In this document: positions 6,276-22,053 of the stretch, in pieces
Numbering within the stretch: the stretch's first letter is position 1
Layout of the letters: the number at the start of each line of letters is the position of its first letter
Assembly: GCA_001823875.1 (NCBI GenBank)
Contig: MHVX01000006.1
Location: 1-35,338 of the forward strand
Length of the DNA: 35,338 nucleotides
Reading direction: 5' to 3'
Source of the DNA: Candidatus Zambryskibacteria bacterium RIFCSPHIGHO2_12_FULL_43_12b
GTDB taxonomy: Bacteria > Patescibacteriota > Minisyncoccia > Phycocordibacterales > Zambryskibacteraceae
Notes under the pieces: generated by a model
The model's database searches: none
What the model saw: the letters and a program-made list of their open reading frames with translations, nothing else
What the model was told of the DNA's origin: nothing
Position numbers and translations under genes: made by a program

Positions 6276-7595
6276 CTAATTCTTCTCTTGTTTATCCGCT
6301 AAAACCTTGCTTAGTTCTTGGCGGACTATCTCCGCATCGTCCCATTCTTGCTTGGTGCCATTTGGCCCCATGATATACGGGTCAGTGCCTTTGCCTGTTA
6401 TTAAAACAGCCACCTTGTTTTGAATATTAGGATCTACCAAACTATAGGCCCTTTTCATCGCAGAGGTGATTGCTCCTCTTCTATCTAAGATGATTTCACA
6501 AGGTTTGTTTTTCACAGCTTCCTTCATGGGCTTGAGGATTTCCATTGGGTTCTCGTCATACGGATCTTCATTGGTGAGTATTACTTCATCACAGTACTTG
6601 TCTGCTACAGTCCCCATTTCTTTTCTTTTCCATTTATCCCTGCCGCCACCTGTGTTTCCGAGCACGCATAGTTTTTTGTGACTTGGAAACGCTTTGTATA
6701 GTTCAGTCAGCGATTCTACCGTGTGAGCATAATCTACGATTGCATCAAAACGTTGAAGTTCTCTTTTGGGGTGTTCATCTGGAAGCCGCACGTATTCCAC
6801 ACGTCCGCGGATCATGTGGAGCTCTCCTATTGCTTTGTCTATCACACGTATGTCTACACCGATTGCATAAGTGAAAGTGGCAGCAGCGAGCAGATTGTAA
6901 ATATTGAAGACCCCGCGGAGGGGCGATTTTATAGGGATTCCTTTGAAACTAAAAGAAGTCACCGTGTCATCGGCGTTCCATGGCTCCGCTAGCGAAAGGG
7001 AATACGGGTGGCTTGCCGTACCTGCCGTGTCCAAAAAGGTCTGTCCGTACTTATCATCAACATTGGCCACCATTATTTTCTTTTCCTTTGAAGACTTCCT
7101 CAGTTCTTTTGCAAGTTTAAGCTTAGCTTCCAAATATTTTTCAAAAGAACCGTGAGATTCAATATGCTCTGGAGCGATATTTGTGAATATGAGAGCGTTT
7201 GGAAACATCCATTTGTGCCGATATTGCTTCACGCCCTCAGAAGTCATTTCTACGATTACCCACTCGCATGCATTGTTTGCCGCTTCACGTAGGAATTTTT
7301 GCATCACAAATCTTCCGGGCATGGTCATCTTAAACATATTGCGCTTGGTTTTTCCCGCAATCTTGAATCGCAATGTTCCCGCTATCGCCGTCCTGTAGCC
7401 AGCTTCCTCCAATATGGCATTAATTATCTCTGTCGTGCTCGTTTTTCCCTTTGTTCCAGTAACCCCCACAATTTTTAGTTTTCTTGCTGGAAATCCGTAA
7501 ATTAATGCTCCAAGAAATGAAAGCACGTAGTGGTAAATCGGTTGAGCTAACCGAAAAAGTGATGGGGGAATAATCTTTCTAATAGTGTTGAGCAT
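6276..7595 (-). CDS. murE: MurE-like Mur ligase (UDP-MurNAc-tripeptide synthetase family)
   Basis: 439 aa ATP-dependent amino-acid ligase of peptidoglycan synthesis. The P-loop GVTGTKGKTSTTEI begins at residue 44, EHIESHGSFEKYLEAK is the Mur central-domain metal-binding block, and the C-terminal domain carries LGNTGGGRDKWKR and LTNEDPYDENP. In canonical MurE the P-loop sits near residue 110, so the N-terminal UDP-MurNAc-binding domain is absent or replaced by a short hydrophobic stretch (about residues 10-40). The position of the DNP(R/A) specificity motif holds DPYDENP, so the third amino acid is not predictable. Its start codon directly follows the ruvA stop. Confidence 0.85.
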   Translation of the reverse strand: MLNTIRKIIPPSLFRLAQPIYHYVLSFLGALIYGFPARKLKIVGVTGTKGKTSTTEIINAILEEAGYRTAIAGTLRFKIAGKTKRNMFKMTMPGRFVMQKFLREAANNACEWVIVEMTSEGVKQYRHKWMFPNALIFTNIAPEHIESHGSFEKYLEAKLKLAKELRKSSKEKKIMVANVDDKYGQTFLDTAGTASHPYSLSLAEPWNADDTVTSFSFKGIPIKSPLRGVFNIYNLLAAATFTYAIGVDIRVIDKAIGELHMIRGRVEYVRLPDEHPKRELQRFDAIVDYAHTVESLTELYKAFPSHKKLCVLGNTGGGRDKWKRKEMGTVADKYCDEVILTNEDPYDENPMEILKPMKEAVKNKPCEIILDRRGAITSAMKRAYSLVDPNIQNKVAVLITGKGTDPYIMGPNGTKQEWDDAEIVRQELSKVLADKQEKN

Positions 7596-17579: not shown

Positions 17580-18254
17580 ATGCACAAGCGAGGAGTAAGA
17601 CCAAAAAATAAAATCAAAATAATATGGTCTGCGAACTTTGCCTATGGAATAGGACTGCTAGTCACTGATGGATGCCTATCGTCGGATGGAAGGCATATTA
17701 CCTTCGTATCTAAGGATATGGAACAAATTGAAAATTTTAGAGGGGCGTTTGGTCTGAGAGACATAAAAACCGGCCAGACAACATCTGGACATAAAGGTAA
17801 AAGAGTTCATAGGCTTCAATTTGGCGACGTAGTATTTTATCGGTTTTTAGAAGGAATAGGTCTTACCTCAGCGAAATCAAAAACAATTGGCTCAGTGGAC
17901 ATCCCAAATAGTTACTTATTTGATTTTTTAAGAGGATGTTTTGATGGGGATGGCACATTCTACTCTTATTGGGACCCACGTTGGAAATCGAGTTTTATGT
18001 TTTATACCGAATTTATTTCAGCGAGCAAAAAGCATATCCTCTGGTTACAGGAAAAGCTATATGAAATATTAAGAATAAGAGGACATATTACAAATGATAA
18101 AAAGGGAGCGACATTACAACTAAAGTATGCAAAAAAAGACTCGCTGAAGTTGCTCAATAAATTGTACTCAAACAAAAAAGGTCTGTTCTTGAAGAGAAAG
18201 AAGTTGAAAGTTGTCAAAGCATTAGCTATAGTGGGGCTGTCTTTGAAAAAATAA
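17580..18254 (+). CDS. LAGLIDADG family homing endonuclease
   Basis: 224 aa with two LAGLIDADG-type helices: GIGLLVTDGCL at about residues 24-34 and LFDFLRGCFDGDGTF at about 116-130; each ends in the acidic residue that binds metal. Two motifs in one chain imply a monomer that cuts a long asymmetric site. It is not inside an evident intron. Its stop codon is 1 nt before tRNA-Leu(GAG), and a tRNA-Leu-like fragment lies just upstream, so the tRNA gene is the probable homing target. The N-terminus is basic (MHKRGVRPKNKIK). Confidence 0.85.
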   Translation: MHKRGVRPKNKIKIIWSANFAYGIGLLVTDGCLSSDGRHITFVSKDMEQIENFRGAFGLRDIKTGQTTSGHKGKRVHRLQFGDVVFYRFLEGIGLTSAKSKTIGSVDIPNSYLFDFLRGCFDGDGTFYSYWDPRWKSSFMFYTEFISASKKHILWLQEKLYEILRIRGHITNDKKGATLQLKYAKKDSLKLLNKLYSNKKGLFLKRKKLKVVKALAIVGLSLKK

Positions 18255-18255
18255 T

Positions 18256-18337
18256 GCGCGGGTGGTGAAACTGGTATACACGTAAGATTGAGGTTCTTAT
18301 GCCGCAAGGCGTGGAGGTTCAAGTCCTCTCCCGCGCA
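18256..18337 (+). tRNA. tRNA-Leu (anticodon GAG)
   Basis: Acceptor GCGCGGG/CCCGCGC, anticodon arm TAAGA-TTGAGGT-TCTTA (anticodon GAG), variable arm GCC-GCAA-GGC, T-arm GGAGG-TTCAAGT-CCTCT, discriminator A. The gene itself lacks CCA (next bases CAG), yet a copy of its 3' end 122 bp downstream does carry CCA. No promoter fits in the 1-nt gap after the endonuclease gene. Confidence 0.95.
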
Positions 18338-18462
18338 CAGATTTAGCGAAGCAACTGCTTGCTTCGCGCACAAAGTCTTGAAGACCCAGAGCATGTTTTG
18401 TCGTAGACAAAACGCGAAGGGTGTACCGAATCTGTAAGATTCAAGTCCTCTCCCGCGCACCA
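18318..18462 (+). repeat. tRNA-Leu 3'-end duplication bracketing a hairpin element
   Basis: Bases 18318-18338 (T-arm to acceptor end) recur exactly at 18440-18460, the second copy ending in CCA (18460-18462). The interior is bounded by ACAGATT (18337-18343) and AATCTGT (18429-18435). It contains a 9-bp hairpin with loop CTGC (18346-18367) and an 8-bp hairpin with loop GTA (18395-18413). This looks like a small insertion at the tRNA 3' end that rebuilt the tRNA. Confidence 0.85.
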
Positions 18463-18476
18463 ATCTAGTGAAAAAA

Positions 18477-21817: not shown

Positions 21818-21890
21818 GGTCCTTATGGTGTAATGGTTAGCACTGAAGTTTGTGGAACTTCCAGTTCGGGTTCAAATCCCGATAAGGACC
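21818..21890 (+). tRNA. tRNA-His (anticodon GTG)
   Basis: G-1 is encoded and faces C73; acceptor GTCCTTA/TAAGGAC, anticodon arm GAAGT-TTGTGGA-ACTTC (anticodon GTG), T-arm TCGGG-TTCAAAT-CCCGA. CCA is not fully encoded (CA then A). Its 3' end is duplicated 161 bp downstream. Confidence 0.95.
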
Positions 21891-22053
21891 CAAAAATAAT
21901 GAAGGAAATGCGAAGCATTTTGTGAATATATTTTTGGAGTACTTATTGGGGTTTGAAAGACGGAGCGCCGACTTTAGCGGCGCGAGTCCGGGGAGGAAGT
22001 TCTTATGAGCGAAGCGAATTAGAAACTTGACCCCAAATCCCGATAAGGACCCA
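21873..22053 (+). repeat. tRNA-His 3'-end duplication bracketing a hairpin element
   Basis: CAAATCCCGATAAGGACCCA at 21873-21892 recurs exactly at 22034-22053. The interior, without a credible gene, holds a hairpin at 21906-21920 (AAATGC-GAA-GCATTT), one at 21965-21983 (GCGCCG/CGGCGC) flanked by CGGA/TCCG, two copies of GCGAAGC, and TTGGGGT (21946-21952) facing ACCCCAA (22030-22036). Confidence 0.85.

Follow-up and report, generated by a model that had tools for sequence, protein, structure and literature searches.

The tRNA-Leu(GAG) locus

The window analyzed here, i.e. the whole stretch of 35,338 nucleotides of a Candidatus Zambryskibacteria contig (MHVX01000006.1), encodes a tRNA-Leu(GAG) followed by a small unit that contains additional copies of the end of the tRNA gene (Table 1). 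The sequence TTCAAGTCCTCTCCCGCGCAC at 18318-18338 recurs exactly at 18440-18460, at a spacing of 122 bp, and comprises the final 20-21 bases of the tRNA, starting at T54 of the T-loop and ending one base past A73; when the alignment of the proximal (P) and distal (D) copies is extended to 36 nt, they are 86% identical. A 21-bp exact repeat at this distance far exceeds what would be expected by chance. The proximal copy completes a well-scoring tRNA (ARAGORN, Rfam) and reads on as A73-CAG, lacking CCA, whereas the distal copy reads A73-CCA (18460-18462). The segment between them contains two hairpins, GCGAAGCAA-CTGC-TTGCTTCGC (18346-18367) and GTTTTGTC...GACAAAAC (18395-18413). The 122-bp segment folds better than its dinucleotide shuffles (z of -2.8 to -3.3), and there is no ORF of consequence within it. 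An earlier note, made from the sequence alone, had claimed the exact tail duplication, the CCA confined to the distal copy, the two hairpins and the absence of coding content, all of which are borne out. It also described 7-bp terminal repeats (ACAGATT/AATCTGT); these are present in the window copy, but the left one is missing in the relatives, so that terminal repeats are not a defining feature of the element.

A freestanding LAGLIDADG-type ORF (window 17580-18254, plus strand; PF14528, E 8.6e-5) is inserted between rplS and tRNA-Leu(GAG). It was rejected as a mobilizer of the unit, given that its homologues adjoin tRNA-Leu(GAG) in six other genomes (L008, L018, L022, L027, L103 and L111), five of which have no detected unit.

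Table 1. Features of the two tRNA-associated units in the window
Feature	Position	Strand	Basis or remark
tRNA-Leu(GAG), host tRNA, 3' end without encoded CCA	18256..18338	+	ARAGORN; Rfam RF00005
P, direct copy of the tail (T54-A73 and the next C), proximal	18318..18338	+	repeat comparison
h2 hairpin, in relatives separating the anti-acceptor from the anti-T segments	18346..18367	+	same position in relatives
A, AGTCTTGAA, T-loop portion of the tail in inverted orientation	18374..18382	+	partly decayed in the window copy
core1 stem2 (18384-18387 with 18419-18422) with apical hairpin 18395-18413	18384..18422	+	alignment A1; covariance model R1
Conserved linker GTACn	18423..18427	+	
Hairpin GAATC-TGTAA-GATTC, 3' strand running into the distal tail	18428..18442	+	n:n' pair Watson-Crick in 114/119 distinct copies
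D, direct copy of the tail, distal, then CCA	18440..18462	+	repeat comparison
tRNA-His(GUG), host of the second unit	21819..21891	+	
core2-type unit behind tRNA-His: A ggggtttgaa 21948-21957, core2 21958-22033, D from C56 at 22034	21948..22052	+	

A family of units behind tRNA genes

In a BLASTN comparison with 99 related genomes, the right end of the element (about 18417-18463) recurs downstream of many tRNAs. This right end, GTACnGAATCTGTAAGA followed immediately by TTC, is located downstream of tRNAs for Leu, Lys, Val, Gly, Ser and Trp, among others, and in most loci inspected it leads into a second copy of the tail of the respective tRNA. An exact scan of the species collection identified 65 contigs, among which the fold-bearing ones belong to unassigned bins or to Patescibacteria, with assignments to Taylor-, Kaiser-, Zambryski-, Lloyd- and Nomurabacteria and Parcubacteria; ten matches in other phyla and one viral match lack the fold and were dismissed as chance. 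With the hairpin position left free, the right-end motif (GTACnGAAnCTGTAAGn followed by TTC) is found in 65 of 297 genomes of the same order, in up to 12 copies per genome, and a control pattern, the motif read backwards, had zero matches in the genomes listed. A tRNA on the same strand is located within 450 nt upstream of 98 of the 119 distinct copies, several of the others lying at contig ends, and the tRNAs that carry units represent 17 amino-acid types plus one undetermined.

Covariance model searches with strict filters recovered further copies in 16 of 286 genomes from other orders of the class. The window's own genome has four copies by this approach, located at tRNA-Leu(GAG), tRNA-Arg(TCG), tRNA-Gly(TCC, decayed) and at a contig end; model R1 assigns 67.4 bits (E 7.8e-16) to the window copy, which is itself among the 44 sequences from which R1 was built. 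That the unit is an element at a tRNA 3' end, and that it belongs to a family in Patescibacteria, is supported. Two contigs binned as Woesebacteria and Paceibacterota (L061 and L087) contain the same core1 sequence, and this binning is probably erroneous.

Direct repeats such as P and D, and the perfect tandem duplicates in some arrays, are also what simple tandem duplication of a tRNA tail would leave behind. The repeats, however, enclose a conserved core that is common to several tRNA types and genera, which refutes this explanation, as well as mere chance, and renders either exceedingly improbable. The units apparently comprise a large, undescribed family of foldable DNA elements downstream of nearly all kinds of tRNA genes in Patescibacteria. 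No description of the combination of P, A, core and D was found in the literature searched, and the novelty of the family is provisional because the coverage of this literature leaves out most subscription journals and all preprints.

Anatomy and covariation of the fold

Each unit holds the tail of its own tRNA three times, namely, as a direct copy (P), an inverted copy (A) and another direct copy (D). From P to D, the order is a variable stretch, which in 23 of 87 copies harbors an intrinsic-terminator-like site, an anti-acceptor segment (in about half of the copies), the h2 hairpin, A and the core. Segment A is complementary to the T-loop and T-stem strand; its sequence is GGACTTGAA in most tRNA-Leu copies, of which AGTCTTGAA in the window copy is a partly decayed version. 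In core1, one base separates A from stem2; next come a variable apical helix, in many cases with tandem G.A pairs at its entrance, the linker GTACn and then the hairpin GAAnC-TGTAA-Gn'TTC, the 3' strand of which supplies the first three bases of D.

Together, A and D close a three-way junction, with stem2 and the CTGTAAG hairpin as the further helices. Pairing in the A:D helix and stem2 reaches 95.3%, compared to 76.1% in shuffled combinations and at most 55.5% in slid registers, and 111 double changes occur in these helices versus 29 in shuffles. Covariation extends to the hairpin, at the n:n' pair of which (Table 1) all four pair types are present. About ten copies have tandem G.A in place of two A:D pairs. 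In some others, AC or a 14-base hairpin is inserted in D after TTCRAn, and pairing with A resumes beyond the insertion. The claim that the distal copy is the ancestral end of the tRNA gene accordingly stands in part: the layout fits a displaced tail, but these insertions imply that D is not always the displaced native end. The 14-base insertion, AA-GCG-TACT-CGC-GG with GTG/CAC and ATG/CAT variants, is located between distal tail positions 59/60 at L130, L143, L144, L147, L149 and, as read by eye, L061.

Two other irregularities of tRNA genes were observed. At L102 (minus strand, about 7070-7200 of the reverse complement), the variable arm of a tRNA-Leu joins the second half of core1, followed by the tail; this interrupted tRNA is a product of deletion or assembly collapse. 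Separately from the units, duplications of the 5' part of a tRNA, from the flank to the D-loop, occur 60-220 bp upstream of tRNA-Lys, Cys, Phe, Met and Gln (11 of 342 tRNAs tested; L002, L046, L119, L082, L183 and L184), and several of these share TAGCTGTyTTGGTAGA in place of TAGCTCAGTTGGTAGA.

The units match their host tRNAs

Over positions 59-65, A matches its own tRNA at 5.85 of 7 positions, compared to 3.91 after shuffling (maximum 4.28), and D matches at 12.6 of 15 versus 7.2. A segment complementary to the acceptor strand was detected in 43 of 87 copies, with 9 expected. Cores that differ by only 1-2 nt are found behind Leu(taa) and Leu(tag) of one genome (G037), as well as behind Gly(gcc) and Pro(tgg) of another (G033), and in each case A fits the tRNA that it follows. 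If A had simply mutated after its arrival, such a fit would hardly result, which implies a copying step. Simple recombination at T54 would leave A unfitted once a core moves to another tRNA, and this counts against a cassette. The possibility that A is copied from the 5' strands of the tRNA was rejected because, at the G.U positions of the few tRNA-Leu copies inspected by hand (L098 among them), A corresponds to the complement of the 3' strand.

Alternative cores, arrays and cargo

A second core family, core2, keeps the order of P, A, core and D, with the core sequence AGnCGGAGC...GCGAGnCGGGGTCGAG...GTGACC; one such unit lies in the window behind tRNA-His (Table 1). Within one genus, the tRNA-Gln(TTG) of one species is followed by core1 and that of another by core2, and the two loci resemble each other in terminator and anti-tail. 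Tandem units (L033, L036, L162, L164, L179 and L185) and mixed arrays, in which core1 and core2 stand behind one tRNA, were also identified.

Only three copies (L057, L109 and L239) bear cargo. There, the distance to the following D of the tRNA concerned is 937, 1327 and 1841 bp, with ORFs in between: a 230-aa protein, membrane-like by eye only; a 142-aa DUF218-like protein, called from a weak match below the cut-off; and an ORF that is zinc-ribbon-like, likewise by eye only, with a 287-aa ORF. The cargo genes may be flanking genes trapped by rearrangement. No recognizable integrase or integrase remnant is present in the cargo units examined.

Filled and empty loci, and candidate enzymes

The order rplS - tRNA-Leu(GAG) is conserved. 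The locus is filled in this genome, G005, G044, G033, G550 and others, and empty in many, including G002, G003, G006, G012, G018, G020 and G026 of the window's own family, a distribution in which gain and loss are not polarized. The empty-site comparison proposed in the earlier note thus turned up orthologous loci that lack the unit, as opposed to a segment carried by all relatives. No near-identical pair of strains with and without the unit was found.

Hand-picked sets of 15 carrier and 15 non-carrier genomes, the latter defined by the strict motif, were surveyed for enzymes that could move the units. Tyrosine recombinases are mostly represented by one protein of Xer size per genome, in carriers as in non-carriers, and no dedicated enzyme, be it a tyrosine recombinase beyond the Xer-like one, a Y1 transposase or a reverse transcriptase, tracks the units in these 30 genomes. 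Mobility driven by Y1 transposases or reverse transcriptases was rejected, neither being associated with the units and Y1 being absent from the carriers G033, G419, G461, G098 and G501. Searches of phages, plasmids and IMG/VR contigs found no units, and carriage by phages, plasmids or viruses was rejected as well, the single viral match lacking the fold. For recombination, the remaining hypothesis is a host protein that would act in trans.

The earlier note likened the element to integration by tyrosine recombinases, and the units could conceivably be scars of ordinary islands of this kind (Islander type), left when serial integrations in the T-loop were followed by deletions that spared the att region. 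The resemblance is real as far as the T54 junction and the intact proximal tRNA end are concerned, some units hold genes, and a T-loop crossover with a restored tRNA end and a displaced fragment is the standard signature of such islands (PMC4383910, PMC1762012). The likeness does not extend to the inverted tail copy A or the covarying three-way junction, which are not expected of such att sites, nor to the presence of the same core at many tRNA types. Moreover, the units examined are free of integrase remnants and most carriers have no tyrosine recombinase in addition to the usual one. We regard an origin as island scars as improbable.

Pairing at the DNA or RNA level

The main rival of a mobile DNA unit is a structured non-coding RNA in the tRNA trailer, in which the transcribed A would pair with P or D and the core would be an RNA domain for tRNA processing or regulation. 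The units always lie on the tRNA strand, their helices covary around conserved elements (the TGTAA loop, the GTACn linker and tandem G.A), and 74 of 100 comparisons give the tRNA-sense strand a slight advantage in fold stability, which leaves room for an RNA role. These features are countered by the patchy presence of the unit behind orthologous tRNAs, its association with tRNAs of any type and the occurrence of several different cores behind the same tRNA. Furthermore, the ratio of G.U to A.C is 36:17 in the element helices (0:4 at n:n') compared to 164:13 in the tRNA stems of the same loci, which points to pairing at the DNA level or to neutrally decaying copies. In the 23 of 87 copies located past an intrinsic-terminator-like site, pairing and conservation are about the same as in the others, and only the tRNA reaches the gathering score in Rfam 15. 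Taken as a whole, a trailer RNA appears unlikely.

A possible mechanism

Among the mechanisms considered, recombinase-driven movement of a DNA cassette has the best support, at roughly even chances, with the trailer RNA as its principal competitor. The sequences show the family and its association with tRNA genes, the copying of the host tail into P, A and D, the covarying fold, tandem and mixed arrays, empty orthologous loci and three units with cargo. The description of the unit as a small, tRNA-anchored, foldable, cassette-like mobile element is, in our estimate, about as likely to be true as not, its action as DNA and its enzyme being what we infer. Under the cassette mechanism, the window unit would be an empty copy with its anchor in the T-loop of the tRNA gene. 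Units would begin with TTCRANNCC (P, which restores the tRNA 3' end) and continue with optional cargo, A, the folded core and a base n adjoining the TTCRANNCC of D. In the single-stranded unit, A would pair with D and the core would supply stem2 and the CTGTAAG hairpin, placing the tip of the three-way junction at the T54 junction. The folded strand would be the recombination substrate, as attC is in integrons, with the intact T-arm of a tRNA gene as the double-stranded target. Crossover beside T54 would let P repair the tRNA and displace the old tail to D, and repetition would generate arrays. The recombinase might act in trans, possibly being the universal Xer protein, and A might be re-fitted to the new tRNA through copying, such as template switching in a palindrome.

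A more far-reaching proposal, which we put forward tentatively and consider possible rather than probable, is that Patescibacteria have an integron-like system that originated separately from IntI integrons, in which any tRNA T-arm can be the dock, re-fitted single-stranded units are the cassettes and genes can ride along. If the DNA reading is true, bacteria with tiny genomes, usually without a dedicated integrase, would have a gene-capture or selfish system that docks at tRNA genes, and the unsolved origin of folded cassette sites would gain a second, independent case, with the fitting of A as a visible trace. If the RNA reading is true, the units would be a new class of tRNA-linked structured RNA. 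Under either reading, the family is easily detected and can confuse the annotation of tRNAs and islands.

Comparison with known systems

Several known types of elements share features with the units. Group I and group II introns were rejected: there is no Rfam intron match, and most units measure roughly 70-150 nt from P to D, too short for the catalytic core of such introns, which comprises about 200 nt or more. The units resemble REP/RAYT and IS200/IS605 hairpin elements in being small, non-coding, foldable as a single strand and multicopy, but differ in their strict tRNA T-loop context, the copying of the tail and the fact that Y1 transposases do not track them.

With tyrosine-integrase islands, the units share the defining direct repeat from the T-loop to the tRNA end and the restored proximal gene. 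They differ in their size of about 120-150 bp, the lack of an integrase gene, the inverse tail copy, the covarying fold and the presence of one core family at many tRNA types. To our knowledge, att sites of ordinary islands have neither an inverted tail copy nor a covarying three-way junction. The comparison is with islands of the T-loop class, exemplified by the attB of phage Ms6, with its T-loop junction, restored proximal end and displaced distal fragment; restoration of the gene with displacement of the old fragment (PMC4383910) and T-loop crossover in Ms6 (PMC1762012) have been described.

The integron attC site is a palindrome of variable length between an inverse core (RYYYAAC) and a core site (GTTRRRY) and is folded as one strand (PMC3053210). 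Unlike attC, the units have nTTCRANNCC and GGNNTYGAA in these places, the core site being the tRNA T-loop, and form a three-way junction with the TGTAA hairpin. Integron cassettes carry promoterless ORFs in arrays; the units do form arrays, but most of them are empty (cargo in 3 cases), and each matches its host tRNA. No IntI was found in the general survey of tyrosine recombinases, which mostly yielded one Xer-like protein per genome. The overall plan is nevertheless that of integron cassettes, with a core site, cargo or none, an inverse core, a variable palindrome and another core site, and with arrays and extra unpaired bases in one strand (the AC insertions in the units); as in attC, the fold is conserved, as evidenced by the covariation of A:D and stem2, with little conservation of sequence and a variable apical part.
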